Part shown: positions 4,718 to 32,508 of the stretch, one piece after another | How positions within the stretch are numbered: position 1 is the first letter of the stretch | How the letters are laid out: each line of letters begins with the position of its first letter | Assembly (NCBI RefSeq): GCF_041381155.1 | Contig: NC_091140.1 | Coordinates: 21,728,864 to 21,792,863, forward strand | Origin: Argopecten irradians | Lineage: Eukaryota > Mollusca > Bivalvia > Pectinida > Pectinidae | Direction: 5' to 3' | Length of the DNA: 64,000 nucleotides | Notes under the pieces: model-generated | The model's input: only the letters and a program-made list of their open reading frames with translations | The model's database searches: none | Told to the model about the DNA's origin: nothing | Made by a program: the position numbers and the translations under genes

Positions 4718-6221
4718 TTATACAATTTCTTTGTTAGGCTTGTTGGCCATATTATTGGAACTACACAATTGTTGAAGATGCTCGTTGCCAGTGTTGCCAG
4801 GATCAGCTGGAGATAAAGTTGGATATTTCGCTTCCGGGTCACACAATGGGGTAGTTTCCATGGTGGTTGGCGATTTGGTATCGTGGCTATCAGACGGAGG
4901 ATTATCCGAGGTGTTTGATGCTGTATGTTGGATAAGAATAGCAGGGCTTTCGGATGCCTTTATAACAAGACGCTGCGTGTTTGTCGAGGCGATCACTACA
5001 CCTAGGACAAGGAAAAATAATTGACACAGTTAAAAAGGTTATCTATAAACTAGAACTGCAGTGATAGATATAATACTATCATTGAATCAGTTATGGATGA
5101 AAATTTTCAAATACAACAGGTATTTTTTCAACATTTAGTTAAAGGCATTGATAAATGCCATCATATATTGTCTGTTTTTGCTGTTAAAATTGTTCAACTA
5201 TTTGAAGGCGATCTGGAGCTAAAATTGTTAAACTATTTGTGGTCTGTTTCAGAATGGAAACTTACGTCCGGCAGCCTGTTGTCGTCGGTAGCGATCACAA
5301 CATGTACATTACCACAAACTTTTTCTTCGTGCAAAATAGGCAATTATACCTATCATACCAAAGATCATAGCACCTCCCAGAGGCGCAGCAAACCTACAAC
5401 ATAATGTTTACTATACAATAATAGACTACAAGTGTGGTCGAAATTACAGAACTTGTTTCAAAAATAAAATTCTTTCGGGTCAATAATATATTTTCTTTGA
5501 TTATTTTACGATACACAATGATCCGTAGATATATGTGTTTTAAATGCTACGCGGAGTTCATGACAACATACAAGTATTGTAAACAAAGTATTTTTACAGT
5601 AAATACAAATTTCCGACTTTCGAAGCAGGTTTCTACAAAAACGCATTATTAGTGAAATGAATTTACTGAATGTCAGTGAATGCCATCACTGATCATATAG
5701 ACAAAATAAATATTAAATAAAATGACTAACCTTTTGGTGTTATTCCTCCATTCTTGAGCTTCAGTTTCTTTTTACTGTAATGAAATATGTTTGAAAGAAT
5801 GATCAGGTCATAGTCCGGTTGTTTAAAGAGCGATTAGCTTAATTGCCTGATTAGTGATTTTTATTATTTGCTGTATAACCGATGATCATATCTTCACTGA
5901 AATAAGCCAGAAGATAAAGAGTAGTGTGTTGCATAATCTTGTAAAATCTTGTAAAGTTAGTTTTACAAAAAAATGATTTTATCTTTATTTGAAAATTGTA
6001 ATAAAGCTTATCACCCTTTGATCAAATGGACCCTGATCTTTCCATTTTGAAAACAAATATTATTATCTTGATAGAACTTTCTATCATTTCAATATTTTTA
6101 ACTAAATGCAACAACTCATTTGCGATAGGTATTCAATTAAATATACGTAATGTGGATACTCCCCAGAAAACAACAGCAGGAATGCAACAACACCGAGTAG
6201 ACGTTGATAGTGGAATGCCAT
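4718..6221 (-). pseudogene. Copy A of the tandem small membrane protein family, broken
   Basis: Four exon-like blocks match those of B, C and D. They are 6221-6164 (MAFHYQRLLGVVAFLLLFSG, a signal peptide), 5774-5731 (contains QEWRNNTK), 5393-5266 (hydrophobic GGAMIFGMIGIIAYF) and 5001-4718 (tail VIASTNTQRLVIKASE... ending NKEIV). Three lesions make it unlikely to encode the full protein. The exon 1 donor GT is GG (GGGAGTATCC where D has GTGAGTATTC). Exon 2 carries one extra A in its opening A-run, shifting the frame (44 nt, against 37 in B). A TAA follows ARRKSLW just after the membrane segment. Acceptors and the other donors are intact, so decay looks recent. B is the closest relative by signal peptide and 3' flank. 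It could still be transcribed. Confidence 0.8.
5002..5265 (-). other. Intron 3 of copy A
   Basis: Donor GTAAGT follows the membrane exon and the acceptor is CCTAG. The interior repeats the words AAATTGTTAAACTATTTG and AAATTGTTCAACTATTTG about 40 nt apart. Nothing else is seen. Confidence 0.6.
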
Positions 6222-6269
6222 TATGCGAAATGCAGGTACACACATAGATTGTTTTAACTATTGTTTTGT

Positions 6270-6284
6270 ATTGCCTACTTTAGA
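6270..6284 (-). promoter_or_regulatory. Conserved TATA-like core block of copy A
   Basis: On the minus strand TCTAAAGTAGGCAAT lies 49-63 nt upstream of the ATG. The same block at the same distance precedes B, C and D. It reads as a weak TATA-type element and implies a 5' UTR of only about 30 nt. Confidence 0.5.
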
Positions 6285-6329
6285 CTGGTGACTCTACACG
6301 TACCGCTAAGGTAAACATTAGTTCGTGTG

Positions 6330-9000
6330 TGCAACAAATGTCAATAATATGCCAGTGTTCATGGATTTGATACCCTACTGAATAATGGCATTCTTGATAT
6401 CGTCAAATGAAAAGTATTCTAAATACGTTTCATCATTAGAAGTGTAATTTAAACCGTATTTTGTTTCAATTTCATACATAAATAACAAAATACTGCAAAC
6501 GTAATGATTAAAAAAATATGCGATACTTATATAAATATAATGATAGACTAGATTCAGAATTATGAACTAAGTTTAAGTTAACATTAACAAATAAGTTATA
6601 TGTGTTGAGAATTGGGGAAACCCGAGGTGGGCGGTTCATACGGTAGATCGTATAGGATATGAGCAATTACTCGTTCATGGACTTAACAAAACAAATCAAC
6701 TGTTAACTAAAAGTGTTTAGTTACAAAAATAAAATTACAGAGGCAGCGGAATATAAATTCATTGTCGATATATATATATATATCAGAATTTCTCCGTATA
6801 ATAAGTTATCATGAATGTATCCTGTAAGTAAATATAGTATGGCTGATATCTTTATAGGTGGAGCAATGCAGAACATAGAGTTCAGTGGTCTTCTTTGCCT
6901 GACTTCAGGAGCAGGGGGATATAGTCAACATAATGTTTTACCGATTTATGCACTTTGGGCATATTTACTTTTACCCGATATCACACTATATCAACATAAT
7001 CCATTGTAGGATTGGTTTTGAAAGTTATTTTCAAAATGGTACATTTAACATCAACTTCAAGTCACGATGACCCTTGACCTATGGTCAAGAACAGAATCTC
7101 TACCTATGGTCAAGAACAGAATCTCTAACATGAAAAAAAAACAGCATGATGATTTGAAGATCAACTTTCCCTTGGCCATTATTAACCAGAATTGTAATGT
7201 TTATTCATAAAGTTTTCAGCACTATGGATATTGAAAAAAGAAGAACCCACTATAGAGAAATGATACCGGTATAGTCGAACTTAATTAGGAACAGAAATAT
7301 CCATAGTTGTCTATAGCTGTTAAGATTAGGATTACGTTTCAAAATGAGAAAGTGTGTTTTGTAGGCTGCACCAACTTCAACTGCATGCTATTTAAATGAT
7401 GTAAACTATTTATTTCAACGTTTGTGGGAAGAAAAGATATCGCCCGGTAATGGAGGGGGTGCCGCGTAGTACTTATGAATACCGGATTATCTGTACCAGG
7501 AAGTTCGTTGCGTGTCACATTATTGTTTACCAATCAAAGATGAAATGACATATTTCGTTCCAACTACAATATATTCACACTGGAAGGCAATACTGCGGTA
7601 AGAAATTGATACGTTTTTATTTCTTTTTTTTAACATGTTTTATCATATCTGGATTTAGGGTTTTAGTCTGTTTTGTTTATGGATGTGTCCGTTTCAGGAC
7701 GTTGAGAGAAAAACGAGAGTTCGCGGAGAAAAACCATCTACCTATCATCAGTTCCTGGGACCTACTCCTTTCAGATGCTTAACTTTCAACCCTGATGTAT
7801 TTTTCGACACACATTGACCAATCGTTCTCAAAACTAAACACACAACAGAAGCGGCTGCTGACTGGGAACATTTACATAAAATTTGAGAAAATCTTTTCAA
7901 TAGTTTTTGAGAAGAGGCAATAAATAATAAAATTGAACCGTCCCTAAGCCAAAGCTATGAAGTACGAGGGAGATACTGTTAACGGGAAATATCAATTCAG
8001 TAGTGATAACGAACTAAACTCTTAATTGTTAAAATTCAAGATGGTTGCTGGTCGGCCGTGTTGCTTCTTGCAACAGATAGCAATTTGCCGACTCTGCTCT
8101 TTTTCTCAATTAATATCAAATTCATCCAGGAAGGGATTCATTTCATACATAATAGAATTTCAATGAAAGAATTGTCCATGAACAGCCGTCACAACATGCC
8201 AAGAATATGACGAGACACGATACGATGTGATGATCAGGGTATGAAATATGACTCCAGAACGAATGAATACGCATTATCCAATATTCATGGCTCAATAGTA
8301 AACTCGTTAACTCGTGCCCGTTATCACATGTCTTGAAAACAATAAAGTTAATTCTAATGTTGTATCCATTCGTATCTATTGCAGAAGGTCTGAGTCAGCT
8401 GTTTTATAGTTTTTTGCAGTTTTTGATTTATTTCAAATGACCTTCGATATCAATCGACACAGCAAAATATTGAGTCGAAATATTTATGTTGTTTCTTTTA
8501 GACCAAATAACTTATCTATTACATCAATAGCAAATTGCGTGTATATACATAATGATATAGCCAATGTAAGGATGTCATGTTACATCAATGGTCTAAAGTC
8601 ATATGATATTTCGAGATAAAGTGACAGAACAATACCTTCTTGGCCAAATTAATCTTCATGTTGAAATTGTGCCTCATTAATTAAAAGTAAAATTAAGCTC
8701 TTTCTTAAACATACACTTATAAGAACAATGCGATTGTTATAATACCTGTACTTTTTCTATAATTCTTAGCATGGGTTTAGAACCATTGGATCTTAGGTTA
8801 CCGTAGTAATCAAGCTCAAACAGTTCGTTTTGTTAAATTCAGAATTGTGAATACTGTAGTCTTTTGTACTCTCCTTGTCGAGGTTTGAATTTCTTTAGCC
8901 CATTTAAGCATTGGTAGGGATAAGAAGACTTTTTAATAATAAGCCGTATTTACACTTTATTCAGTATGACCGAATAATTCAATCAGGAAGTGTTTAAGAA
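6330..9000. other. Intergenic DNA between copies A and B; one 25-bp tandem duplication
   Basis: The only clear structure is a perfect tandem pair of 25 bp at 7078-7102 and 7103-7127 (unit begins CCTATGGTCAAGAACAG). An (AT)n run lies at 6771-6783. No exon of the local gene family and no transposon protein could be found here. Confidence 0.5.
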
Positions 9001-9346
9001 AAGTACATATGTACCGTCTATCTTCATTCACGAGTGAAGTTTGCTGTTTTGTGTATTATACATCAAGACGACACGATACACGATACAGATTTATTGTTCT
9101 TTTCCAGACCAGGACATTTGTTAAGTTTACAGACATACACACAACACACTTTGAGCCTGACAGATTGAACAGAAATTCGTCAATTATAAGCAGAGAACTA
9201 CGCTGAACCACATTGGTCACAACGAACAATGGATACAACGAAATGACTGTGTATCTATTTACTCTGTTTGCACTCAAAACATCTATTAAATTTTTTTTTT
9301 TTTTTGACATTTTGGCAATAATACTGTAAATACATGTACACGACAG

Positions 9347-12300
9347 TTAATAAAGGTGATCTATTTCAGTGTTGCCAGGATATGATGGAGATGAAACTTG
9401 AGATTTCGTTTCCTGGTTGTACAGCGGAGGATTATCGGGTGTATTCGCTGGTGTACGTTCGGTGGGATAAGTTGGCATGCTGGATACATTAACATGCACG
9501 AGAGGCCGTGTGTCTGCCGAGATCATTTCCAAACCTAGAAAAAATATGATAATCATCTTAATTATCATATCAAGTTATCGCTCAATCGCTTAATCTTTAT
9601 CTTAAAATCCCAAAAATAACAGGCTGTAACGTTAGATTACACGTATTCACGGGAGTTTTTCTTGTTATCGCCCATTTGTTAAGGTATTGTGGCTGTTGAA
9701 ACTATTTTGTTTAAATGTTTTAGTTAAATTAACGTCAAATCAACAACCAGAGTCGTCTAAGGATGACCTCCATGTTACGTATGTGAATTCCGTGGTGCGT
9801 GTTTTGAGATGCTGTGGTATATTTGCTTTATGTCTTCTTGTAATATAGAAACTCTTGCCATTTTTATAGTACGATCCCACTAAAGCATATCGTCGAGGAC
9901 AACAATCAAGCACATCTCACCCGATCACGTTAAACCGACAACGATCAAACCAGTCGTCCCACTCTCTTTATACTGAGCGCTAAGCAGAAGCAAAAACTAC
10001 CACTTTTATAGACTATGGTTTGTCGCGGTCAGGGGACAGAACCTTTCTTGAAGAGGCGAGAGTAGCATGGGTGACTTGTGGTACTGTTCAAATGGAATTA
10101 TTAGCGTCATGTAGATTTTCGCTGATTTCACTTTTATTAAAACTCTGCGAACATATCCATGCGAATCGTGTTAGCAAAGTTTATATATATATATATGAAT
10201 AATTTCATAATTCAAGAATTATCTTGCAAATAGATTTCAGGCTGGCAAAACAATTCATATGTGAAAACATTTAACATACAGTGTTTGATTGGTTTAATAT
10301 CCTAAAACAGTGAGGGTCATTTAAGAACCTACAGTGTCATGTTTATGCATAAATTTAGGCAGAGGAAAGCTAGAATACCCTAAGGAAAAGCACCGACTGG
10401 TGATAAGTACCTGGCAACTGCCCCAAATAAAATTCGAACTCGCGACCCAGAGCAGGAGGGCGTCTTAACCAGACTTTTTGGTGTAATTGTCTACTGTAAA
10501 TCTACACGAATGTTGAAAACGCGACTACTATAACCCAGTACGATTGTTAGAATGGTTTGTAGTCGACTTTAGACTTACGTCTGGCAGCCTGTAGCTGTTG
10601 TCGATCGCGTTCGCGTTTCTGTATTCCCACAAACGTTCTGTATCGTATGCAACAACAGGTGACGAGGGCCATTATAACGATCACTGAACTCCCTCCAAGT
10701 ATATAGTACCTGACATGATTGACAAAAAATGCAAAATCAGTATTGTCTTAAAGGAAAACAATAGCATATGTTACCTCATACCCTCTAAATTTTGGAAGAT
10801 TTTTGAGAGTTTGCGCGATTACAATATTTGTTACTTTTTCATCGTTTTTCCTTAGAAATTAAAAATCCTTAAACTACATTTAAATCCAAAAATAAAAAGA
10901 CAGAATGTTTTAATTCGATTCTTATAATTAAATGCTTGATATTTTCATATTTGTGAACTTCCATGATTAAAAACAGAAATCAACTTGATAAGTTGACATA
11001 GCTTATAATGTCGTAACACTGGTGATTTATGTGAAAACTTTGAAGTAAAAAAGATGGAATTTCAACTCTCCACATCGTGTAAAAAGCGCACATCTTAGAA
11101 ATGGCCGCCAAATGGGTCATTTATTTAAACTGCTATTAAAATATTTACAAAAGATAGAAGACTTATTTTTGTCAGATTTGACTTTTTGAGATTTGATTAG
11201 ACAATTTTTTTTTTGAATCCATAACAATTCTTCGTTCGTGGTTGAAACGAGACTTCAACGAGAGTGAAACCTTACCAGAGAAGATCCTTAAAGGTAGGTT
11301 TCGCCCAATGAAATATAAAGACTACGAAATTGAAATTTATCCTATACATAGATATAATCTTCAGATCATTTTCAATGCATACATCGAACAATATGGGTGG
11401 TCAGTTGCCTAGCTTGACCAGGAAAATACTCCTCTAAAAATAGAGCGAAGTCAAGCTTTACATAGAACATGATGAGGCCGCAGCAACATACGGAAGCGTG
11501 CAACAAAATGTCAGATAGAAGTGACAGTCTTGCCACGGCATGTTTAGTTAAAAAACAACAACAACAAATCGAAGTGCGAGGGACTGTTTATACATATCAT
11601 ATAATCTAAAACACTTCATGTTACTTACATACGCTCGCTAACTTTGTACACCAAATATACATGTAGTTAGTCTGTATTTGTGCGCTGGCATATGTGTTGA
11701 AATTTAACTCACCACGTGCAATGCCGTTACAAGAGTCCCAACAGATCCCGGCAAGTTCCGCTTGAGATGTGGCTTCTGTTTCTTTTATTGCTACATGCCA
11801 TTTCTGAATTTAATTCCTATAGATATCCTAGGGTGCTACCGAATCCATTATAATTTCCTCCACTTTGTTGCCGATTCAGATATATTTTCTTCATCGCACA
11901 CACTTTCGTTCAGCCATTTTGTTTACTTTTAGTGCGTGACAATGCGCATGCGCCAAACTTCGACAACACAATCCATCGCAGCTTCATTTGCATATTATTT
12001 TGTCTGACGGACACCGTAATAAATCAAGGATTTCCTTCAATTTTGTATTCAAGACACATTTGTTCAATCTCAAACACATAAGGAAATTAAATTGAGATAT
12101 TTTAATATGTTTTTTCATCTTTTCTTCCGCTTATCGCATTTCACAAAAAAAAATATTTAGTTGGTTGGGCGAAACCTACCTTTAATGAAATAATTCCATG
12201 ATCATATATTCAAAATAACTATAAGCTGCAACTCACGATCCGTTGTTGTTTCTCCAGCCTTCAGCTTCTTTTGCTGAAAGTGATAAATATTGTTTTAAAT

Positions 12301-12527
12301 ATAAAAATACTAACAATTATTTGATACTTAACAATCACTCTTAAAAATCACATCGACATATTTTAATATTGAGTGTTACCTTAGAATCGCAGCTTAGCTT
12401 TTGTTTGTTTGTTTGTGATGTGATTCTAAAGATCGGTTACAAAATGCAAAAAAAATACTAATTACTTACCAAGAACCACTAATAGGAATGCAACAACACC
12501 GAGTACACGTTGATAGTGGGAGGCCAT
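9347..12527 (-). CDS. Gene B, predicted 137-aa signal-peptide/single-pass membrane protein of the tandem family
   Basis: Four exons join in frame with GT-AG splice sites: 12527-12470, 12273-12237, 10709-10579 and 9534-9347 (intron phases 1, 2, 1). Residues 1-20 form a signal peptide with core VLGVVAFLLVVLA. Residues 21-32 (KEAEGWRNNNGS) are the whole ectodomain and include the sequon NGS. A membrane segment spans about 36-54, followed by CCC, RYRTFV and a charged stretch (QKRERDRQQ). The tail (77-137) is Thr/Pro rich with no recognised domain. B lacks the ectodomain Cys that C and D have at position 25. The ATG is chosen because it starts the hydrophobic signal, sits in the same place in all four copies and has a conserved promoter block upstream. 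The family is not recognised; a membrane adaptor or small receptor is only an inference. Introns 2 and 3 carry transposons. Confidence 0.75.
9724..10065 (-). mobile_element. Diverged partial SINE-like copy (copy 3) in intron 3 of gene B
   Basis: Matches the elements at 1151-1681 and 41090-41610 over most of its length. Shared words in plus-strand order are AATTAACGTC, GCGTGTTTTGAGA, CCAGTCGTCCCACTC, ACTGAGCGCTAAGCAG and ACTACCACTTTTATAGAC. The head end (the CCTGCAGGTAGGG side) is missing. It is visibly more diverged than the other two, so it is probably older. Confidence 0.7.
10335..10500 (-). mobile_element. tRNA-derived SINE fragment in intron 3 of gene B
   Basis: On the minus strand TGGTTAAGACGCCC is followed by GGTCGCGAGTTCGAATT, an A-box-like and B-box-like pair as in tRNA-headed SINEs. 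Further on comes CGGTGCTTTTCCTTAGGG, the kind of body seen in mollusc SINEs. The acceptor-stem partner and CCA region are absent, so this is not a functional tRNA gene. A related body fragment is at 25249-25320. Confidence 0.6.
11292..12181. mobile_element. TTAA-flanked nonautonomous DNA transposon in intron 2 of gene B
   Basis: The ends are perfect 17-bp terminal inverted repeats AGGTAGGTTTCGCCCAA, each flanked by TTAA (11288-11291 and 12182-12185), the target preference of piggyBac-type and some other elements. The interior of about 860 bp has no transposase frame. It is inserted between exons 2 and 3 of gene B, with splice sites unaffected. Confidence 0.8.
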
Positions 12528-12575
12528 TATGCGAAATGCCGGTAGATATATACATTGCTTTAACTATTGTTTTGT

Positions 12576-12590
12576 ATTGCCTGCTTTAGA
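12576..12590 (-). promoter_or_regulatory. Conserved TATA-like core block of gene B
   Basis: The minus strand reads TCTAAAGCAGGCAAT, 49-63 nt upstream of the start codon. Upstream similarity with copy A continues through the word GACTCTACACGTACCG (plus strand), about 40 nt further. Confidence 0.55.
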
Positions 12591-12629
12591 CTGGTGACTC
12601 TACACGTACCGATAAAGTATACATTGGTT

Positions 12630-13660
12630 CGCACCCATATGACTTAAATACAGATCACCATTATACACCACGTTATGAAGATTAGATTGGGTTCCACATT
12701 TTTCATATTACTGTTATGTTATATCATACTGGTCAAGCGAGAAGTATATATAATCAATAGACGTTTTGAGGTCAATTGATTGTTTTACACGATACCTATC
12801 ACTTCATGTATATTTCCAGAATTCGAGATATGATTTTTGATTGTAAAAATGAATAAATTGCAATTGCCGATGATCCCAGAAATATCATAATATTGAATTA
12901 CTTTTTAAGACGTGATGATTAAAAGTTTTATATGTAAGTAAAAATTTAATGAATACGTTGAGTATCCTTAACATAGTCCAACTAAGCAACGAGGAATGTA
13001 ACGTGTTGGCAATTTTTAACAGAACAATGCATTTTTATGAATTTGAGACCATCTTGTCATGTTCCTGACTAGATGAGGCTACAAAATGAAGCTCGCACAT
13101 GGAGCGTTTTAAGTCACATTCTGCTCGTTGTTCGTTTTCAAATTCGTATTAGCCGAAAGAGAAAAAAGAATTGGTGCAAAATGGGAGTTTAAAAGTAATA
13201 TATTTTATTTTATTTTTTTTACATTGGGCAGTCATGATACGACAAGATGAAGACCACTTACATTCATGAGTCCATAAATTGATCTTTTTTTATTTTTATA
13301 AGCTGTTACGAAATAGTATTATATAGTTGTTATGAATGCAGTTTAAAGTAAATATGAAAGGTGTTTCCAACGACGAAAGGTTTGTCTCCGCGGACCCGTC
13401 CGACTATTCGAAAAAATATGGATTCTTTCTTTGATTGAAATTATAAATCAAGGAACAAAAAAGCTGATTCTCAAAGGTAATTGCCTTTATTGAAGATAAA
13501 TTATGCTTAACCCAATTAGACATTTTCAAGACTTTGTGAAATAGGATAAATACGAAACGTTGGAGTCTGAGGGTAAAATTTAAGCCAATACTAAGTATTA
13601 TCGCTATACAATCGATATTTAATGTCAATTAGGACATTGGTAATAGAAGAGTAAATGTTA
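12630..13660. other. Intergenic, nothing recognised
   Basis: AT-rich DNA upstream of gene B. No conserved coding words, paired repeats or splice-bounded frames are visible. Confidence 0.45.
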
Positions 13661-13667
13661 CTTGCTA

Positions 13668-16503: not shown

Positions 16504-18808
16504 CTAAACTCTTTGATGGTATCCAGTGTTGTAAGGGTTTGACGGAGATGGACTACCGGGAGTTGTCTGGGCATCAGATGAAGAACTGTTCAGGGTACTG
16601 CGTGTTCCTCGCTGGTCATACCCAGTGTTGTATGGGTTGGCTTGGCTACTTGATGTATCAACCACATGGTGATGTGTGTCTACGATTAGCATAGCTGGAA
16701 AATAACAGTATTAACAATAATAAAATTAGATATTTTAATGTGTGACTACAATAGATCTGGAAATTGATAATAAATTATAATTTTGATGATTATATGGTGT
16801 GAGAACTTAAGATAAATGTACATGGTTTGTTCAAACATCAAGCTGAAGGAAAAGCCTGAATTTTACATTGGATATGCCAGACTGATGAACACTTACGTCT
16901 GGCTGGTTGATAGCGTTTTTCCACAAAAGTTCGGTATCGTAAGCAACAAGTTATGCAGAAAACCATGATCACAAGAGAGCAACTTCCTCCGGCAATGATG
17001 TAGCTTAAACAGAACGTGAAACTCAGTCACAATATACGGTATTTATACAAAAATAAAGTTGGTGAAGAATTAGAGGATTTATTAGCAAAACTGGTTTTGA
17101 TATTATTATCATACTTAAGACAAAAGTAGTGATTAATTAAAACAGATTAACTAAAACAGAAAATTATAGGAATGTGAGTGTAAGGGGTGAAAATAAAAAC
17201 TATGATAGCTTAAATACCAACAGGTCGGACAGGGTTCCGCCATATGACTTCCCGACCTGGGTATCAGACTACCGCATGCATGTCACCGTCAACATGCACA
17301 ATGAAATGGTTTTAACAACTGGTGTAAATTACAGTTGAATAGTTTCATTTCATGTGTGAATTACAGTAATTTCCACTTGAACAAAACTGTTCGATAGATT
17401 AGAAAGCACCATTCATCGCGGATGTTTAACCAACATTTCTCTGACAGACATTTATGAACATTGGTCAGTGAACTTCTTGCTAAATGCATATAATTCAACA
17501 TACTATTCCCAACAGAATCATAATGAATCTCGTCATTTAAAAGCAACAACGTTTTTTCAAGATAAAATCAGAGGTAGTGATCCATTGACCTTGACCTTTA
17601 ACAAAATGACCTTGACCTGCAACCCACTGTCACTGACTTAGGGTCAGACGAGGCTTTCGTTGCCCCATTGTCAGGCAACTCAATGTCAACTTGTGAAAAA
17701 CTTGGTTCATATTATGTTTCACAAAATGTTTATCAGTTAGCTACTTTCAAATATCCCATTGTAAAAGTCCAAGATGGCCGTTCAGCAGCCATTTTGAATC
17801 CAGTTATCCCAAAATGTTACACAGCAGCTCTAGATGACACGAGGAGTTATTCTACCAAATTGGTAACACTCAAATTTCTCCAGTAGACAACTTGGTCGCT
17901 GCGTAGCCATTTTGGATTCGGTTTACTGAAAACATTAAACAGCACTATAGGATGGCATGTGAAATTATCCTGCCTTTGAAAACAATACCCTCCCATTGCA
18001 ATTTTATAAAAATAAAGCAAAACAAACAGACAGATAGACAGACAAAATGATGATTGTAGGACAGCCGAGGCCCAAATAATAAAAAAATATCTGGCTGACA
18101 TAGAAAACATTGCTGCTTGAAGTGAAATATGAGATAAATCTTATGAAGCACTAAAGCATATTTTCATGTGTTATGAAACTACTTACCTGTGCGTGTTCGT
18201 CCACCAACATTCGACTTCTTTGACTAAAAGTCAATAAAACATTGACTTTAACGGAATATGTATAGATACAACACGGGAAACGATTGATATTTTTTCAGAT
18301 ATGTCGATTTTAGCAAATATGCCGCCATGTAGGCTTTTTACAGGTTCTAATTATGAAACATAGACCCAGACATTTTGTTGGATCAGTGACAGGTTAACGC
18401 TAGTCAATTACAAGGGCTAGACTTGGTTCCAGGCCACAAATGTCATCCACAGGACGGAATGTTGGCTCCTTTTCTGTAAAGATATTATTGCTTTTGATTC
18501 CTTATGGCTTGTTCACATTTTATCATTTAGGAAAGACAACAATTGTGTAAGAAAAACGTTGGTAAATGTCCATAATATGGGAGAATATAAGTTTAACAGT
18601 GGCTTGTTAAAACCACCCACTGAGTAATCTGTAGTCCACTTTATTTTGTAGTATTCATATAAACACTATTGGCTAGCATTTCACATTTCTGGTTACACAA
18701 TGTAATATGTACAGTATATCTGATTAATGATGATTTTACCGAATACTCACCTAGAAACACCACCAGAAATGCCACCACACTAATTACATGATGATTTAGT
18801 GACGCCAT
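16504..18808 (-). CDS. Gene C, predicted 130-aa signal-peptide/single-pass membrane protein of the tandem family
   Basis: Exons 18808-18751, 18223-18187, 17003-16897 and 16694-16504 join in frame (phases 1, 2, 1), all with GT-AG borders. Residues 1-20 are a signal peptide (core VISVVAFLVVFLV). Residues 21-32 (KEVECWWTNTHS) are the ectodomain, with one Cys at 25. A membrane segment covers about 35-53 (IAGGSCSLVIMVFCITCCL). The juxtamembrane LRYRTFVEKRYQPARP is basic, and its CC could be palmitoylated (inference). The tail has two copies of NPYNTGY, at 87-93 and 120-126, followed by DQR and HQR, separated by a Ser-rich linker. The Tyr-bearing repeats look like docking sites for a cytoplasmic partner, but that is inference. 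Closest to gene D in ectodomain and tail. Function unknown. Confidence 0.78.
17210..18186. other. Part of intron 2 of gene C; no gene seen
   Basis: Contains TGACCTTGACC twice (about 17580-17612) and paired phrases around CAGCAGCCATTTTGAATCC and GTAGCCATTTTGGATTCGG. These suggest an old dispersed repeat, not exons. The frames present have no recognisable protein words. Confidence 0.4.
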
Positions 18809-20744: not shown

Positions 20745-22055
20745 ATCCCCCGCCAATGGAGATATCAAAGCTGAAGTAAGTTTGATTGTGGAGACTTATG
20801 TGTATGAAACAAAAAAAAAAGGAAGTTGAGCTAAAGAAAGATGGAGTATAATTCAAGTAAAGCAGGGCTGCAATTGTTGAATCAGGTATACAGCCTTGAC
20901 ATTTATATTAGACTATATACACAAAGATGGGTGGAGTTTTGCAAAGTAACATTTACCATTTACCATGATATTTTCAGCAATGTTTCCATGGTAACGGAAA
21001 AAGTGCAAAAGTGAAAACCTAAAAAAATAGCAAAAGGTACTACTAGACCATATAAAGAATGTGTCTATGAAGTTTCGTGGAAATATCTCTGCTGGTTTTA
21101 GAGTTGTGCTCCGGAAATGAACCTGCTACAGAAATATGATATTTTCAGCAATGTTTCTATGGTTACAGAAAAAAGCACAAAAAGTGAAAACCTAAAAATA
21201 GCAAAAGGCACTACTAGACCATAAGAACAATGTGTCTATGAAGTTTCATGGAAATATCTCTGCTGGTTTTAGAGTTATGCTCCGGAAATGATTCTTACAC
21301 AAAAATCTGCCATTTTCAGCAATGTTTCCATGATTACAGAAAAAAGTACAAAAAGTGAAAACCTTAAAATACAAGTCTATGAAGTTTCATGGAATAATCT
21401 CTGCTGGTTTTAGAGTTGTGCTCCGGAAACGATTCTTACACAAAAATCTGCCATTTTCAGCAATGTTTCCATGGTTACAGAAAAAAAGTACAAAAATTGA
21501 AAACCTTAAAATAGCAAAAGGCGCGCTACTAGACCATAAGACCAATGTGTCTATGAAGTTTCATGGAAATGTCTCTTCTGGTTTTAGAGTTATGCTCCGG
21601 AAATGATTCTTACACAAAAATCTGCCATTTTCAGCAATGTTTCCATGGTTACAGAAAAAAGTACAAAAAGTGAAAACCTTAAAATAGCAAAAGGCACTAC
21701 TAGACCATCAGACCAATGTGTCTATGAAGTTTCGTGGAAATATCTCTTCTGGTTTTAGAGTTATGCTCCGGAAACGAACCTGGTACAAAAATATGATATT
21801 TTCAGCAATGTTTCCATGGTTACGGAAAAAATGCAAAAAATGAAAACCTAAAAATAGCAAAAGGCACTACTAGACCATAAGACCAATGTGTGTATGAAGT
21901 TTCGTGGAAATATCTCTACTGGTTTTAGAGTTATGCTCCGGAAACCATTCGTACGGACGGACGGACGGACGGACGGACGGACGGACGGACGGACGGACGG
22001 ACGGACGGACGGAACCCATTTGTATATCCCCCGCCAACTTCGTTGGGCGGGGGAT
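20745..22055 (+). mobile_element. Pearl/Helentron-like element with six core repeats, (ACGG)n and terminal hairpin
   Basis: The left end is ATCCCCCGCCAA; the right end is a hairpin at 22026-22055 built from the same word and its inverse around a CTTCG loop. Between them lie six tandem cores marked by TTTTCAGCAATGTTT, at 20971, 21142, 21313, 21454, 21628 and 21799. The period is about 171 bp, with one unit some 30 bp shorter. A pure (ACGG)n run of about 15 units follows at 21952-22013. This layout is that of bivalve pearl elements. It is noncoding; frames reading KFHGNISSGFRVMLRK arise from the repeat. Confidence 0.85.
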
Positions 22056-22820: not shown

Positions 22821-22821
22821 G

Positions 22822-23312
22822 AAAGAAAACGTATCACCCTGCTAAAAAGAATGACGCCACTGTTATGTTGACCTTACGTTTAAAACGTATCACCCTGCTA
22901 ATTAGAAGGACGCCACCGTTATGTTGACTTTACGTTTAAAACGTATCACCCTGTATCACCCTGCTAATTAGAAGGACGCCACTGTTATGTTGACTTTACG
23001 TTTAAAACGTATCACCCTGCTAATTAGAAGGACGCCACCGTTATGTTGACTTTACGTTTAAAACGTATCACCTTCTTAATTAGAAGGACGCCACTGTTAT
23101 GTTGACCTTACGTTTAAAACGTATCACCCTGCTAATTAGAAGGACGCCACCGTTATGTTGACTTTACGTTTAAAACGTATCACCCTGCTAATTAGAAGGA
23201 CGCCACTGTTATGTTGACTTTACGTTTAAAACGTATTACCCTGCTAATTAGAAGGACGCTACTGTTATGTTGACCTTACGTTTAAAACGCATCACCCTGC
23301 TAATTAGAAAAT
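22822..23312. repeat. 56-bp minisatellite, about eight units
   Basis: The unit contains GTATCACCCTGCTAATTAGA, then AGGACGCCAC, GTTATGTTGAC and TTTACGTTTAAAAC. Units alternate between GACCTTACG and GACTTTACG, and between GCCACC and GCCACT. The join of adjacent units forms the palindromic word ACGTTTAAAACGT. A diverged unit persists outside the array at 23355-23410 (GGGACGCCACTGTTACGTTC). Confidence 0.9.
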
Positions 23313-23419: not shown

Positions 23420-24680
23420 TATGTCTAGTTACTCCACCAGGAAGTTCAGTAAGGTACTACACCTGAAAGTCATCCATCCGTGTAAACCTCTGCACACCAT
23501 ACATGTGATATAAGCAAACCAAAACTTGTTTACAAAACTAGGCCTATTGTTGTTTAAATTGATGTTCTCAAATATTGATTAATATTAATATATTGATTAT
23601 TATATGTTTAAAAATACACAACAACAAAAAAATCCTAATCATAACAGTTAAATTTGGTTAAATCCTAATATACGTGTTTCTCTTTTAGAAACTTAATTAG
23701 TTTCATTCAAACATATGAATAAATCTGCAAAATGAAAATATCATATTACCACTTTGGCCTACAATTTAAAAATTATATGAAACTTAGTGAGCTCAGATTA
23801 GCGAACATAATTTTCTGTATAATGAAATGTGTAAAATTATAAACAAACGAGTAAACATACAAATGATGTACATGTATATGGTTTCTGTGGATATTGTTTT
23901 CGAACGACAGTGATCATGATATCACAATTGTATTTCACATTTAAGTAAGCACTAAATGATCTAATAATAAGTTATTCACTAATCGACATATACTAAAACA
24001 ATGATAAAATTTAAAGTAAGGAATTTCCATTACCCAGAGAAATATCACTCATGGTATATTTCGAACTGGTCAAGTTTTCTTTCATTTGATGACAAATGAA
24101 CTTCAAGTTGAACAGGGAACTGACGAATCGCCAGCTGTGAATCAAACCGCCCATGATACGTTAGGTACACGTGCGTTCGAGAGTAACACAATCGACTGAC
24201 AAAGACTGTGTGATATAATTGAAATAACAAAATAATCATGAGAGTAATGTAAACATTCCACACTTAATGTACTTCCAGAGAACGATATCCACCATCTTGA
24301 GTTGTATAATAAAATTTGAATTGAAGTTTCGACCCTGATAGTGGTTAAATAAATATTGACAAATAAAGACTCGTGAATGATAACAGATAAACAAGGTAGG
24401 TGTTCCGTGAGAGAGAGCGTCCCTTGCCTAATAGCTTTTTGACACACAACTAACATATTTTGGTCTAAACTGGACCATTCGGAAAAAGATCCCACAATCC
24501 CTCAAATTCATTAATTAGTATGTCTATGTAGGTTATTTAATAAAAATGAAATACGTTTTAAACTCTATCTGTGTTAAGTTTCTCTTGAGTGACAGCAATT
24601 GAATCACAATGATCATAACGGAGATTAATCATGAAAAACCCATCACGTCTTTAAAAAGCAAAAGAGCATTTGTGATATCC
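23420..24680. other. Intergenic, nothing recognised
   Basis: AT-rich DNA before the transposase exons. It may include the 5' part of that transposon, but no terminal inverted repeat or upstream exon could be identified. Confidence 0.4.
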
Positions 24681-24687
24681 TACACAG

Positions 24688-26536
24688 TAAAGCAATTCTG
24701 GTAGTCGATGGAACATATATCTTCATTCAAAAAAGTCACAACTTTTAATTCCAACGACGATCCTACAGCCTTCACAAGAACAGACCCCTTATAAAGCCAA
24801 TGATGATTGTATCAACAACTGGATACATCATTTCTGCCCTTGGCCCCTACCATGCTGATGTAAAAAATAATGATGCAAGTATTATCAAGCATAACATTAA
24901 CTTCAATATGGAAAACATGCGGGAGTGGCTGCAAGAGGAGGATGTTCTTATTGTGGACAGAGGTTTTCGAGATTTGGTTGAATTTCTTGGCGAGATAGGT
25001 ATTGAATCTCACATGCCAGCATTTCTTCTAAAAGGACAGAAACAACATTCTTCCGAAGAGGTATTTTTATAATTCAAGTACACTTTATGTGTAATAATAA
25101 TGTTTTGAAGCAATAATGCATTCATAATTTACACACACAGTGTACTTTGGCGCATTATAAATCATAAGTATAAACATATTGATAATAAGATTGATCTTTG
25201 TGGTCACTTGTTCAACACATTAAAACAAGTCCTCAAACTCTGGTTCATAGGTAAAGGGTTTTTATCCGGATACTCCGGCTTTCCTCCACTTTATAAACTG
25301 GTACATCCTCAAATGATCCTGGCTGATAATATGATATTTAACCAAACATTTCAAATCAAATATTGGCAATGACAGAAAAGTAGTTGAATATCTTAAGTTT
25401 ATTACAGTAGTTTTGATACAGATATAGTCTGAACATTTGCACTTTTTAATTTTATATTAATGTTTGCACACTGTTTTGCAGGCCAACACTTCAAGACTTG
25501 TTACAAAGATCAGATGGGTAGTGGAATCTGTCAATTCAAGGATTAAACAATGGAAGTACCTAGCCAACATTGTCCCTAATACACAGATTCCTTATATTGG
25601 TGATTACGTCAGGTTGATCTGTGCCATATGCAACAAATATAAGGGACCTCTGAGTGCTGGGAATCCTGATGATGACCAAATACTTGCTGCAAAGATGAAG
25701 GTATGTGCACTTTAAAATTAACTTAAAACAATGTGTTGCTTTTTATTCTGTTATAAAGAATTACCAGATATTTGAAATAATTGATTGTGATGGCATATAT
25801 TCTGAATACTCTGTAAGCTTTTTAATATGCAGATGTAATATTAGTATAGAAGTTCAAAATACGAGTAATTGAACAAAATTCTATATGCCATAATATTGCT
25901 TCCTTCCTCAAATATTGTTGATACAATGATTGTTTTATTCATAATGATAAAGATGGTAGACAAACAAGGAATTCACACAGCTGTTATGTTTTATTACTTA
26001 TTCAAACAGGTCCTGAAAAAAAGAAGAATGTGCTGCAAGAGCGAGTAACTGAGGAAGGTCTTGATAGGAAAACACATGCATGGAAGAAGCTGGATGCAGC
26101 AGATGCAGTGCCAGATTTCCCTTCCATGAGTGAAGAAGAACTGCGTGATATCACTATCGGTATATACCAGCTACAGATGGCCAAACACTATACTCAGGAA
26201 CACATGACAGAGGATGGTAGATTCCAGATCGTGTTAAATGAAGATTTTCCAGGAATTCTCAGGGCACAAGTTCAGAGCCGCCATACCTCATCTAAAAGGT
26301 ACTGGCTGTGGGTGGAATATAGTCCTGCAGTTGTAAAAAGCTGGTATTGGCAATGTCAGGCTGGTGCTAGAGTGGTTGGAACATGTTGCCATATTGCAAC
26401 AGTTCTATGGTATCTGGGGTATGCCAGACATTCTGTTGACATCTTACCCAGTGTCCAGAATTGGTCGAAATATCTACAAGATGCATCAGAATTTCCAGTG
26501 TTAATGGATGACAGTGATATCAGTGAGGAAGAATGA
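24688..26536 (+). pseudogene. DDE transposase with C-terminal SWIM-like finger, decayed, three exon blocks
   Basis: Blocks 24688-25060, 25482-25700 and 26024-26536 (alternative acceptor at 26010) are bordered by AG and GT. The first carries AILVVDGTY (first Asp, 24707) and VDRGFRD (second Asp, 24956). The second carries [18 protein letters not shown] (Glu, 25524) and AICNKYKG. The third ends with WYWQCQAGARVVGTCCHIA, a SWIM-like Cys/His finger, and an acidic tail DDSDISEEE. The catalytic order and spacing fit a DDE_Tnp_4-like (PIF/Harbinger-type) transposase; family placement is tentative. An in-frame TAA at 24746 breaks the first block. The best-looking third acceptor (CAAACAG at 26009) is out of phase, while a weaker one at 26023 keeps the frame. 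Upstream exons and terminal repeats were not found. Confidence 0.7.
25249..25320 (+). mobile_element. SINE body fragment inside the transposase intron
   Basis: TTTATCCGGATACTCCGGCT followed by TTCCTCCAC resembles the body of tRNA-headed mollusc SINEs and the minus-strand sequence at 10345-10400 (CTTTTCCTTAGGGTATTCTA, then GCTTTCCTCTGCC). No tRNA-like head is present here, so it is a truncated copy or a transferred tail. Confidence 0.45.
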
Positions 26537-26539
26537 GAT

Positions 26540-29500
26540 TGTGTAAGAATGGCTTTAAAGTTTTCTTGTTTACATCTGTGAATTAGATATCAGTATATCA
26601 TGACCAGACTAATATATATTGGTATGTCATTTGAATTCTAAACCACCAATAAATGTTTTCCTTTCCAAGATTTGAATGTAAAAATCTGCTAGAGTACTAA
26701 TGCTAATTGATGCATTTTGGTCACTTAATTTGTTTATCAAACTTTGACAGATATGTTGTTGTGAAAGGGTTAGTGTTTGAAATATTACCAATTTTAACTT
26801 TATGAATGTTTAACATTGACAGCAGTAATGCATGCAGATGCTTTGTAAAAATGATTAAATGATTTGATTGATTTAGACTCATTTTTAAAAATATTGATGT
26901 TAGACATAATCATCATATCATTCATCATTCAAACATTAGTATGTCATTGGTTGAAGTGTTTAAACTGCATATATAGTGTGGGAATTTTTCATGTTTTTTT
27001 TGCTTACACCTTGATCAGATTTTTCATGCAACATATATTAAGTGCTACTTATGCTAGTCAGTCCATTCAGAGAAGAAATGGTAAACAAAGATGAGATGAT
27101 TTCCAATGATTATATATATATGTACGCAATGTATGCCAGTTTTATAACTAAACACATGCACGTTCTGGTTCCACTGACTTGCTGATTTGAAGTGCAAATG
27201 AAAATAATCTGGTACATATTTAACATGGCGTTTTAGTATCGTTTTTTCCAAATTAAGAAGCATTTATTTGTAATTAAGTAATGTTCTGCTTCTTATTAAT
27301 TTCTAATAGTAATATAATAAATTCATTCTATGATTGTTGATGATGAAAATATCATGATGACGATGATGATTGTGAATGTGGTTGTGGTGTCGGAGGCATG
27401 TGCAGATGTTAATGGCTGATGTTTGAAAATATTTTATGATACAACCATACACTTGTATTTGTTGCTGTGATAATTGCAGATTAATTGATATGTCAGTATT
27501 ATCGATAGCAATAATATTTATCGATAGTAATAATATTCTCAGAATATTGATAATTACTTTTAAATTATTGTTGATTGTACATGTATGCATGTTGATTATT
27601 TTTGTTAAAAGTAGCATTGCCAGTTATGTAATTTATTCGGTTATTTTGTACTGAATGAATGAAATAGGAATGGATTATAAAGGGATAAAGAGGGGTACAT
27701 GACATAACGTGATTTACAGAACAGGATGCGAACCTCTGGCACACCGTGAAAAGTTGTAAGTTCGTAAGTCACTGGCGCGGCTGAAAATGCTCGTAAACTT
27801 GGCCTGCTGTACATCAGAGTCTGTCATCTTTCATTATTGCACTTGGGAATTTCAATAAATTAAGAGTACTGCCATTTTTCTTTTTTAAATTGTGAGTGTA
27901 TAATAATTATTGTAGATAGAAGTTATTCTAATCATCTTTATATCATTATTTCATATTGTGTCTAAATGTTTGATAAATGATGTTGTTATGTTCTCAATAA
28001 TTTGATTGATATAAACTTTCAGAAATGTAAAAACTGTCTTGTTTTTATTTAACATTATCCTTAAATAACAAAATTACAATCTTTCTGACAGCTGAAATAC
28101 AAAAAGGGAATAACCAAAACTAAAATTTCAACATCTAAAAAAACTTGTTATGTTGTGTTTTGAGTGCCTAGAAAATTGTTGTTATAGAGAAAAATTGGTT
28201 GCTATGGTGTTACTATGAGCTGTAAAAGGATAAAGTTTTCTGAAATGTGACATGCTTTGACTATTTCATATTCATGATACATAATGCACACTCTCCCACT
28301 AAATATAGAAGTTGGGACATCCTTAAAGTGACAAAACTGTCTATTTTAGCATGAATACAGTATACTGGTTGCCAGGCCTGTTGCTAGGCAACAACATGTC
28401 AGAATGCTTTGAAATAGTGTTTTTATAAATCTCATATATTGGTGAAAATAAGTAATGAAAATAAAAGGAATCTGTGTTGGGGCCAAAAATGGCCCTTATT
28501 GCACCTACTCCTTTGTATTGGTATATTTTAATAGTACAGTTATAAAATACACTCCCAAAACAAACAAAAAAACAAACAAACACTTTGCCAAAAAAAAAAC
28601 ACAGACAAACCAAATCCCGCACTATAATATTGTTATTGATATTGTTGATTATATCTCGCCGTTTATGTTTATGTTTCCTAAATGTAAAAGCGTAATTGCT
28701 TCCAGCTGATATTGTATTGAGATAAACATTACGTCAAGTAGGCTTTGCTTTGATAGGTTTCTCGTATCAATAAATGGACCAGAACGTACCTATTTTCATT
28801 GAAGTATATACGTTTATATAATGGAGAACTTCTTTAACGACGTATTTTTATTGAATATCACTACAAGTTGAAACATATCTTTCAATATTTTCCTGTTTAA
28901 ACCGACTTTATACATGCAGTATATCTTCTCCAACTTGATCTCCCATTACTGGAATACCCCCCATTCGCCGAACTGATCACATGGTCCCGACAGTGACTCT
29001 TTATGTTTCATGTAACAAAGCCCCGCATAGCTCGAACTGCTACCCGTCGAATACCCCTTATTCCTCGAACAGTATCTTATCCAATTTAATACTATTTAAC
29101 CATCTACTCTTCAAGCAGGTGTTTAACTATTCAGATTTGTTTATCTACAACATGTTGTATTCATTTCTATCCAATGTTATGACTATTACAAACAAAAGTC
29201 ACTTTTATGAATAATTGAAATGCTCTAAAACAAAATGATAGTGTTTCTTAGCATACATGGTTTGTCATAATTCTTATTCAGAAATAGATCAAAAGAAACC
29301 TAAAGGATATCCTCGTGAGAAATTTGTTCAGTTTGACGAAATTTTATCTTGTGTGTCATTAATTAACAGTCAGGGTCACATGGAGTTCCAAACTTTACTT
29401 GTAATAAGAATCCATTGTATTCCCAAACACAACATTGATCTTCAGAAAACACAAAGTCACTTATTTAGTATGTGTAAGGTTAAAAACATTTTTTTTAAAA

Positions 29501-29730
29501 TATACAAATAATAAGTCACTTAATATATAATAAACTACTTGAAATGATAAAATGACCACAGTGATCTGCCAGGGTTTTCTAAAAACCTAAATGTGTACAT
29601 CTAAATCCTAAGTCTGTTTGCACTCGATATATAAACCTGTTTCTTAAGTTTGAATGTCTAGCTATTATAAAGCGAAGAATTTATACATGGTTTTGCTAAG
29701 ACGTACTGTCGGCGACATTCCTGGAACTTC
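26540..29730. other. Intergenic, nothing firmly recognised
   Basis: AT-rich, with small GAT-type repeats near 27340-27375. Between 28950 and 29070 the words CCGAACTG, CTCGAACTG, GTCGAATACCCC and CCTCGAAC recur with loose spacing, which suggests an old dispersed repeat. No family exon or supported protein is seen. Confidence 0.4.
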
Positions 29731-29737
29731 ACGACAC

Positions 29738-32508
29738 TTAACGTGGCTGATCGTACCCAGTTTTGGAAGGATCTGATGGCGACGGATTGCCAGGAGTGGT
29801 AGGCTTGACAAACTGGCCATTAGTTGGAGGAATTCCCGAGGTGCTGCCGGTACTGGATTGGCGAAAAGAGGGGTGAATATCCGGGGTACTTCCATTCACG
29901 GATCGTACATAAGAAGGTGGTATACCCATGGTTCCTATTGTCCCGGTTTGGTCATACCCGGCGTTGTAGGGGTTGGCTGTGTTGCTGGGTGTACCAATGA
30001 CGCGCTGCTGTGTGTTTCCCGGTATGACCATCAACTCTGTAAAACAATAGAAAGACCCATAAATCTTACATTAGCTGATGGATATCAATTCAATAACAAC
30101 AAGGTCAACGATATCAACAGAAAAGATGGTTGCGCCCATAAAAACATGTGGTGTCTGTTCCAACAATTGATTGGACAAGATTGTCACCTAAACGTCTGTC
30201 GGAAGCGGATTTAGGAGAAATTCATGACATTAAATGTGACCTTTATACACAGGGATAAATGGACAATATACATTTTATATTTGGGTCCGAAGATGACCGT
30301 AGATCTACGATATGAGTACTTACGTCGGGCTGGTCGTCGTTGACTGGACATACATCTTTGGGTTCGTAAACAAATACGAATCACGATGAGTATGATGAGA
30401 ACTACAGAAACTCCTCCAACTGTGACGTAGCTAAATTGTGAAACAAAATCATGCTTAAAAATAGTCACAATACATACGACAAAATAATTAACTTCGTTAG
30501 ATATCCATCCTATAGTACCAACATCGTGAAACAGCGTTACGTCAAATATCGTGTGTCAGATTATTTGATTTGGCAGTTGTGCTATATGTTATCGAGTTAT
30601 TGTTCAGGACCTGAAACCTGTCGCACAAGGCCATGGTAAGATCTGTATGCACTGTTCGAAACTTTCAAATTTTAGCACATATTCTTTTCAAAGCAAGTAA
30701 ATAAAATGTCGTAAAATAATAATTAATCGTTATAAATAAAAATATCATACAGCGAATTGTTTGAAATTGGACTTATATAAAAAAGTATCTACACAAATAA
30801 AAATCCTGTTAAAAATGCTCCACCGCCGACAAAGCATAAATGATATTCATCATTTGAACAATAATTAGTGTTTAATCGTGTGTATGTATGTATAATTAAC
30901 ACAAAAAATAATATAAAATAATTTACTTCGCCTTTGGTACATGCGCAATCAGTACTTCATTCCATATAGGATATAGTAGCACGGAAATTTTTTCGGGATG
31001 CAATTAATTATTTTTATATTTTTAACTTGAAGTAAAATTAGCAGCTCAAACTTTTCAATGGTGATAATGGTGTAAATTAAGTAACTTTTGTAACTGAAGA
31101 AAAATACTAAATCGTCTGCTCCTGTTTTTGATAGTGAAAAAAATACCATTTGTCAGCGGTGGAGCATCTTTAACAGTATCTAGCACCCAAAGCTAGGAAA
31201 AAACAAACTTTCACGATCACAAACATTATTATATGGCTGTGTGTTTTGCTCGCTCCTGATTGGCTGAAACTAACACTTTCCCGCCACGATACAACACGAT
31301 ATCAACCAGAAAATTCCGAACTATGCATTGTGACGTCATCCCAGGTTGATATAAGATTCCAGAACCCCCAGGTCGTACCCAAATATAGAAATCTTGAATT
31401 GTGACGTTCTGTAAAATGACGTCACAATCACTTCACAGGTTGATATAAGATTCCAATAGCTCCAGGTCGTACCCAAATATAGCGCAAAGGGAATTTCCGT
31501 GACGTCAAAAATCTATTGTGACGTCATCATTCAGCGAGATGTAACGGATAGCAGCAGGTTTACTGGAATCGATGTGACTCTGCAAATATTTGTGTGTGCA
31601 TTTTTGTCAGAGTTTTCAAATTATAATTAAAATGGTGTTTTCTCTATTTTATTGATATTATCAGCCTTTTATTTTCCTCCTCGAAATTATTCAACCGGAT
31701 TATTGAGTATCGGGGAGAGGGGCTACTCAATATCATGAAGAGGAAATACATGTACATATACATGTAGTCAAATGGTTTACATTAAGTAAATGCCATATAA
31801 TAAAACAGATATCGACCTGTTTTCAGGTGGATACGGTGATTTATCAACCCTCGAAAGTGATATAACCCTCCGCCTACGGCCTCGGGTAATATCACTTCCT
31901 CGAGTTGATAAATCACCGTATCCACCTGAAAACAGGTCGATATTTGTATAATGTCAGTTTTAACTTTTAAGTTACGCACAACGTATTTTTAGAAACAATG
32001 TATAATCATGGTGACATCATAATGACAATTGCTATGGCAATTTGTTTTCATCCAATGAACGAAATTTGTGACATAAATATGCCACCCTACCAACCCATAT
32101 ATCACTAGATCGGATGTCTTGACCGTGGCGATACTCTAACATCTAGATAATGTGTAAGGTAACAATTTACCTGTGGGTGGATGTCCAACATTCGGCTTCT
32201 TTTACTGCAAGCAAATGCGCTTATAACTGATTTGTTTGAAAAGAAACAAAATATAGACAGAAAAATCGAGCACTTACATCATAAATGAGAAGTTGGTAAA
32301 TCATAACGTCTCAACAACAATAAATTATTGGATCAAAAGCCAATTGAATACTTCCAATTGTTGTAAAAACTCTTTTTAGTATCATTATATGGTGGCTGAA
32401 CTTAGTTTCTTGTATGACTGGAAACATGTTAAAAGAATTTGAATACTCACCAAGAAATACCAACAGGAAAGCGGCAACAGAAAATAGATGTTGACCTGAA
32501 GGCGCCAT
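29738..32508 (-). CDS. Gene D, predicted 165-aa signal-peptide/single-pass membrane protein of the tandem family
   Basis: Exons 32508-32451, 32204-32171, 30430-30324 and 30036-29738 join in frame (phases 1, 2, 1), all with GT-AG borders. Residues 1-20 are a signal peptide (core LFSVAAFLLVFLV). Residues 21-31 (KEAECWTSTHS) are the ectodomain, with Cys25. The membrane segment is about 34-51 (TVGGVSVVLIILIVIRIC). The basic juxtamembrane LRTQRC...RRPAR lacks the RYRTF motif of B and C. The tail is the longest of the family: NPYNAGYDQ at 88-96, then three loose repeats around GIPPSY, DIHPSF and GIPPTN, then TTPGNPSPSDP and a final TGYDQPR. The last part parallels the end of C. Introns 1-3 are 246, 1740 and 287 bp; intron 2 holds a TTAA MITE and a palindrome. 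Function unknown. Confidence 0.78.
30813..31169. mobile_element. TTAA-flanked MITE, copy 1 (intron 2 of gene D)
   Basis: Ends ATGCTCCACCGCCGACAAA and TTTGTCAGCGGTGGAGCAT are inverted repeats, with TTAA at 30809-30812 and 31170-31173. A second copy lies in the opposite orientation at 58139-58482, sharing words such as GATGCAATTAATTATTTTTA (inverted there) and GCAGACGATTTAG. It is noncoding. Confidence 0.85.
31342..31482 (+). repeat. Two 47-bp direct repeats, 94 bp apart
   Basis: CAGGTTGATATAAGATTCCA followed by GGTCGTACCCAAATATAG occurs at 31342-31388 and 31436-31482. TGACGTCA or TGACGT words are interspersed. It is part of intron 2 of gene D. Confidence 0.8.
31809..31943. mobile_element. 135-bp near-perfect palindrome (foldback MITE)
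   Basis: The arm ATATCGACCTGTTTTCAGGT, continuing with GGATACGGTGATTTATCAAC, is repeated inverted. The loop region carries CCGCCTACGGCCTCGGG. It lies in intron 2 of gene D on the side near exon 2. Long hairpins of this kind are abundant in bivalve genomes. Confidence 0.85.

Follow-up and report, generated by a model that had tools for sequence, protein, structure and literature searches.

A small tandem family of predicted single-pass membrane proteins with a minimal ectodomain in Argopecten irradians

A stretch of 64,000 nucleotides (nt) from the bivalve Argopecten irradians (NCBI RefSeq assembly GCF_041381155.1, contig NC_091140.1, positions 21,728,864 to 21,792,863 of the forward strand), referred to below as the window, harbors a tandem family of small genes with copies A to D. 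Judging by their predicted structures, B, C and D are genuine genes with spliced exons, and the window thus holds three genes and one pseudogene. The kind of protein they would encode, a short single-pass membrane protein, is ordinary; the near-absence of an ectodomain is unusual.

Gene structures and predicted proteins

Exons were placed by hand and then checked by script. All copies in the window are located on the minus strand (positions refer to the window):

Copy B, exon 1: 12470-12527, minus strand, 58 nt; ATG and signal-peptide-like hydrophobic stretch, donor GTAAGT, phase 1
Copy B, exon 2: 12237-12273, minus strand, 37 nt; encodes AKEAEGWRNNNG, the putative short ectodomain; acceptor CAG, donor GTGAGT, phases 1 to 2
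Copy B, exon 3: 10579-10709, minus strand, 131 nt; predicted transmembrane segment (hydropathy 2.44) and basic juxtamembrane region, phases 2 to 1
Copy B, exon 4: 9347-9534, minus strand, 188 nt including stop; predicted cytoplasmic tail with PPLY (PPxY)
Copy C, exon 1: 18751-18808, minus strand, 58 nt
Copy C, exon 2: 18187-18223, minus strand, 37 nt; encodes VKEVECWWTNTH and fits the exact exon 2 pattern
Copy C, exon 3: 16897-17003, minus strand, 107 nt; predicted transmembrane segment
Copy C, exon 4: 16504-16694, minus strand, 191 nt including stop; tail with NPYNTGYDQ and NPYNTGYHQ, no PPxY
Copy D, exon 1: 32451-32508, minus strand, 58 nt
Copy D, exon 2: 32171-32204, minus strand, 34 nt; encodes VKEAECWTSTH
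Copy D, exon 3: 30324-30430, minus strand, 107 nt; predicted transmembrane segment
Copy D, exon 4: 29738-30036, minus strand, 299 nt including stop; tail with NPYNAGYDQ, IPPSY and C-terminal GYDQPR
Copy A, remnants of all four exons: 6164-6221, 5731-5774, 5266-5393 and 4718-5001 (span 4718..6221), minus strand; pseudogene

Each of the copies B, C and D comprises four exons with intron phases 1-2-1, and GT-AG borders are present at all nine introns; intron 2 measures 1.2-1.7 kb. The open products have lengths of 137 (B), 130 (C) and 165 (D) amino acids. Exons of 34-58 nt are said to escape gene finders. Copy A is classified as a pseudogene because of three lesions: its exon 1 donor is GG instead of GT, an extra A in exon 2 shifts the frame, and exon 3 contains an in-frame TAA. 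A first-pass annotation of the window had proposed four proteins, encoded by four tandem copies with a four-exon layout, phases 1-2-1 and a first exon of 58 nt. This layout could be confirmed for B, C and D but not for A, which leaves three proteins. Among the conserved words cited in that annotation, KE.E.W and R..R-like pairs after the membrane segment are found again, whereas VAFL is present in B and C but reads AAFL in D, and PAR is present in C and D but reads AAR in B.

Topology was judged by hydropathy alone. In B, C and D a signal-peptide-like stretch at approximately residues 8-20 is followed by a single membrane segment at approximately residues 33-53. With best 19-residue values of 2.29-2.68 the membrane segment is more hydrophobic than the N-terminal stretch (1.66-2.04). 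The two are separated by KE.E.(C/G)W and a few polar residues, and Arg-rich stretches follow the membrane segment. This agrees with the initial description as regards the signal-peptide-like N-terminus, the single strong membrane segment, the brevity of the ectodomain and the positive charge of the juxtamembrane region. Based on the -3/-1 rule for signal peptide cleavage, the most natural site would be located before Trp (A/V-E-C/G before W), leaving about 7 outer residues and removing residue 25; earlier cleavage would leave about 12 residues outside. Residue 25 is Cys in C and D and Gly in B, corresponding to one and no Cys in the ectodomain, respectively. The initial idea of disulfide dimers formed through Cys25 fits poorly with the Gly in B and with a likeliest cleavage site that removes this residue.

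The tails differ in length and motifs. That of B contains NPPLY and no PYNxGYDQ, and those of C and D each contain one exact PYNxGYDQ together with one near copy.

Coding constraint and distribution in the genome

The likeness of exons 1 and 3 among B, C and D exceeds chance. In a leave-one-out comparison, a profile derived from the other two copies was used to score exon 1 or exon 3 of the omitted copy, with 20 dinucleotide-shuffled windows as control. Scores of 47.5-54.0 were obtained for exon 1 (47.5 for B) compared to a shuffled maximum of 31.0, and scores of 49.0-63.5 for exon 3 compared to a shuffled maximum of 28.5. Scored as the DNA reads, with its split first codon, exon 3 of B reached 58.5.

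Synonymous and nonsynonymous changes were compared by Fisher tests in which sites were treated as independent. The ratio of nonsynonymous to synonymous change (dN/dS) was 0.30 for B-C (P 2e-6), 0.48 for B-D (P 9e-4) and 0.46 for C-D (P 3e-4), with 51-66% of the synonymous sites differing among the three copies. An equal accumulation of both kinds of change, named in the first-pass annotation as grounds for giving up the family, is not observed for B, C and D, as synonymous change is in excess in all three pairs. Over exons 1-3, the C-D ratio amounts to 0.62. Copy D and the locus E1 described below gave a ratio of 0.72 with no significant synonymous excess (P 0.24) and 0.95 in exon 4; E1 contains a nonsense codon.

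DNA comparison between the copies (blastn, E 0.01) revealed matches mainly in the exons and the adjoining 5' flank. For A-B, five of the seven matches touch exons, and a segment of 148 bp that begins 104 bp ahead of the start and runs into exon 1 is 90.5% identical. Two matches, at exon 1 and exon 3, were obtained for B-C, the C-D alignment covers exons 1, 2 and 4, and no match was found for A-D and B-D at this threshold. D-E1 is the closest pair, with an alignment that also extends into intron stretches; the single B-E1 match lies outside the exons. The flank of B is described as follows:

12528..12631, minus strand: conserved 5' flank of B, 104 bp common to A and about 60 bp common to C; possible core promoter and 5' untranslated region

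About 91 bp of 5' flank are common to D and E1 and about 20 bp to C and D (blastn). Besides blastn, the conserved flank is backed by a DNA search of the genome with the 5' flank of C as query.

The genome (845.8 Mb, 1508 contigs) was searched with single protein queries. In our contig numbering, NC_091140.1 is C7 and the window corresponds to C7:21728864-21792863. Every match with E <0.28 was located on C7, and four matches on other contigs (C155, C12, C14, C2) had E values of 0.28-3.4. Outside the window, the following family loci were found:

Locus E: ~C7:21717030-21717302, minus strand, exons 1-2 only
Locus Z: C7:21724154-21725067, minus strand, exons 3-4, frame broken in exon 4
Locus F: ~C7:21803107, plus strand, exon 3 only
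Locus E1: C7:23803438-23805851, plus strand, four exons, one in-frame TGA in exon 3
Locus E2: C7:23819867-23821586, exons 2 and 4 found
Locus E3: C7:23825336-23826271, exons 1 and 4 found, in-frame stops in exon 4

A search of 144 kb for the exons lacking in E, Z and F, and of 60 kb for those lacking in E2 and E3, was without result. In total, three of ten loci (B, C, D) are intact as shown and seven are broken or incomplete in the fetched sequence, a count in which exons outside that sequence or strongly diverged ones would escape detection.

Two motifs turned out to be specific for the family. The exact exon 2 pattern has five matches in the genome, all of them at family loci. PYNxGYDQ, searched in its DNA form, has eight, likewise all at family loci, compared to none for the reversed control; Z, E1 and E3 contribute two matches apiece, and C and D a single one. 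Matches to the exon 2 pattern with one mismatch elsewhere in the genome were as frequent as those of a reversed-pattern control (four each) and were discarded. Matches of a Z-tail query on C2, C15 and C13 (E >=0.0088, most with in-frame stops) and at a distant position on C7 (E 0.096) were also discarded. Within the reach of these searches, the family occurs at only two places, both on C7, and the searches revealed no relative whose ectodomain is longer. Beside the second of these places, at ~C7:23827760-23832216 (L046-L047), a tandem array with a period of 50 bp was observed whose translation mimics SYIIVG of exon 3.

Relation to Shisa-like genes and other membrane proteins

Similar to Shisa-like proteins and CYYR1, the family members would be single-pass proteins with a signal-peptide-like start, four exons with phases 1-2-1, a Cys within or beside the membrane segment and PPxY in some tails. 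For human CYYR1, PMC1863428 gives four small exons and three PPPY repeats. PMC5578492 defines Shisa-like (STMC6) proteins by an ectodomain with six Cys, ordered C*C*CC*CC, that follows the signal sequence. This ectodomain is absent from B, C and D, which have no or one Cys in 7-12 residues. A literature search under the full name of CYYR1 returned nothing on oyster; one on Shisa in molluscs led to PMC5549309, in which Shisa-like proteins are described as over-represented in mussel gill.

The Pfam profiles CYYR1, WBP-1 and Shisa_N gave 3, 1 and 6 matches over the genome at E up to 1, none of them above cut-off; WBP-1 and Shisa_N each also match one bacterial control below cut-off. On reading, the loci L051, L055 and L056 appear to contain exons of the Shisa/CYYR1 type, and L052 resembles a related gene with another plan. 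L057-L060 are near-copies of L056, and L053 and L054 appear to be chance matches. A further locus, L061, is called Shisa-like because of its six-Cys order; its protein matches Shisa_N with E 0.029, below cut-off. In L056 and L061, both on C11, an ectodomain exon of 124 nt with phase 1-2 is followed by a membrane exon with phase 2-1, the phase of exon 1 being deduced from exon 2. L051 and L055 also exhibit a membrane exon of phase 2-1; where the ectodomain exon of L055 ends is ambiguous, the phase being 0 if the first GT is used and 2 for a later one. Membrane-exon phases of 2-1 therefore occur in four of the five Shisa-like loci examined. By chance, three phases coincide in 1/27 of unrelated four-exon genes if phases are even, and more often with the known biases, so that the match is suggestive but no proof. 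L056 and L059-L061 belong to a cluster of six-Cys Shisa-like genes at C11:23872760-24024405, for which Pfam Shisa_N stays below cut-off. An L056-type protein query gave 30 genome matches at E up to 1, 18 of them in this cluster and 4 on C78.

The likeness to Shisa/CYYR1 suggested at first is supported by the intron phases, which are the same as in six-Cys genes of the same genome, and not by sequence, where no test was significant. With 34-37 nt, exon 2 is also far shorter than the 124 nt in L056 and L061. The ectodomain of L061 begins near AAEEC, compared to VKEAEC in D. Since the family lacks the six-Cys ectodomain and shows no significant sequence similarity, we do not file it as Shisa-like; it may nevertheless function like these proteins without being a member. 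It is possible, though doubtful, that a Shisa/CYYR1-like branch lost its Cys-rich ectodomain by shrinkage of one phase-1-2 exon from 124 to 34-37 nt and now acts solely through the membrane helix and a PY/tyrosine tail that evolves rapidly.

Searching Pfam with the whole B, C and D proteins yielded only sub-threshold matches. B matched WBP-1 at residues 41-111, i.e. membrane segment and tail (E 0.018, 16.1 bits compared to a cut-off of 28.1), and Comm (PF15957; E 0.24, 12.1 bits compared to a cut-off of 27); C and D matched neither. The matches of C were two viral membrane proteins (best E 0.012) and a copper transporter, that of D was synaptobrevin. Apart from the named leads WBP-1 and Comm, we take these matches as probable membrane-segment noise. 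A PDB profile search gave two matches, the best with E 0.11 (a TMIE chain). The likeness to WBP1/VOPP1 thus consists of a match of B that remains below cut-off and is not shared by C and D.

In PMC5578492, Commissureless (Comm), yeast Rcr, PRRG, CYYR and Shisa are compared as short PY-motif membrane proteins, and Comm is given there as having no ectodomain Cys. The family resembles Comm and PRRG4 in consisting of short single-pass proteins, some with PY motifs in the predicted cytoplasmic tail, and B is like Comm in having no ectodomain Cys. In contrast, the Gla domain of PRRG is absent in B, C and D, C carries no PY motif, and the similarity to Comm stays below cut-off. A literature search for the tail motif strings found no paper, and one for short ectodomains returned only unrelated work.

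A possible adaptor role and its alternatives

The reading that we tentatively favor, with slightly less than even confidence, regards B, C and D as type I single-pass membrane adaptors whose short PY/tyrosine tails serve to sort membrane partners. The signal peptide would insert the protein into the membrane, and exon 2 would leave only some 7-12 residues on the outer side, which is not enough for a ligand-binding fold. The choice of client would be left to the membrane helix, which begins with Gly-Gly and could associate either with another copy of itself or with client membrane proteins. The tail, with PPxY in B and D and PYNxGYDQ-type motifs in C and D, may recruit WW-domain or SH2 proteins, most likely HECT ubiquitin ligases of the Nedd4/WWP type. 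The bound client would then be sorted or degraded, as for Commissureless, PRRG4 and CYYR1. CYYR1 binds WWP1 via PPxY and steers it to lysosomal degradation, as reported in PMC11399591.

Several observations weigh against this reading. Intact copy C lacks PPxY, and a single PPxY is not significant, since shuffled tails contain at least one with a frequency of 0.07 (B), 0.08 (D) and 0.19 (E1). The PY reading is consequently based on B, D, E1 and Z taken as a group, in which D and E1 are closely related; Z has seven PPxY across two reading frames, mostly as IPP(F/S)YD units. The WBP-1 match of B ties with the unrelated TMIE (E 0.018) and does not surpass the unrelated matches of C, which corresponds to noise level. 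An hhalign comparison of the family with the L061 protein gave a probability of 1.5%, and in L052 membrane segment and tail share one exon. In a fly assay described in PMC5578492, PRRG4 acted like Comm, and CYYR1 and Shisa4 gave no phenotype. Finally, with three of ten loci shown intact, the family may be decaying.

Taken further, this last point would make B, C and D weakly constrained remnants of little function in a family whose tandem duplicates arise and die. The seven broken or incomplete loci, the D-E1 pair, the C-D ratio over exons 1-3 and the variable tails are in line with such a decay. We nonetheless consider it rather unlikely, as B, C and D retain all splice sites, frames and membrane segments in spite of their divergence at synonymous sites, and the synonymous excess is clear overall.

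The tails could also point towards signaling subunits similar to DAP10/DAP12, which would associate within the membrane with a receptor that binds the ligand and would signal via phosphorylated tail tyrosines. A minimal ectodomain and tyrosine motifs in the tail are common to both. PYNxGYDQ-type motifs occur in C and D, the relics Z, E1, E2 and E3 retain them in exact or decayed form, and Cys25 of C and D could bridge dimers. The SH2 domain of Crk prefers pYDxP, which YDQP in D resembles. DAP10/DAP12 subunits have an acidic residue in the membrane and an ITAM (immunoreceptor tyrosine-based activation motif) or YINM tail. In contrast, the membrane segments of B, C and D are all free of acidic residues, and neither ITAM spacing nor YINM is found. 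Cys25 is missing in B and perhaps cleaved off in C and D, and B has no PYNxGYDQ. Such an assignment is therefore improbable in our view.

A hidden, alternatively spliced ectodomain exon of compatible phase within an intron would turn the proteins into ordinary Shisa/CYYR1-like ones. Phases 1-2-1 as in Shisa-like genes and the length of intron 2 would allow for it. However, when introns of different copies (A, B, C and D) were compared in translation, no similarity emerged at E 1e-3. A six-Cys pattern is absent near the copies, the four matches in the window all being located in a repeat at ~56.5 kb; this makes such an exon very unlikely. A membrane hairpin of two helices with a 12-residue loop, formed if the N-terminal stretch stays uncleaved, would agree with two hydrophobic peaks at short distance but is hardly to be expected, as the first stretch spans only ~13 residues and is the less hydrophobic one, as for a signal peptide.

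Further features were observed in the window:

20965-21954 and 22826-23309, between C and D: tandem arrays with 171-bp and 56-bp units
24800-26536, plus strand, between C and D: by eye, transposase-like pieces with introns; a 168-residue open reading frame remained without Pfam match (E up to 1)
43511-52305: 8.8-kb satellite with a 22-bp unit, ~399 copies, 93% matches and strong negative GC skew
62155-63926, minus strand: retroelement fragments with integrase core and RNase H/H2C2 domains in two overlapping open frames

The case for the adaptor is limited by weak homology evidence and many broken copies, and it would be of moderate interest if either the Shisa-like descent or the adaptor role were shown. 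If the adaptor reading is true, the family represents a natural experiment in which the adaptor plan is cut down to signal peptide, membrane helix and tail and is kept intact in three paralogues. If the descent from a Shisa-like gene is true as well, the membrane and tail parts alone would suffice for a working adaptor. The family would then allow one to ask whether short PY-motif adaptors pick their clients by the membrane helix alone.

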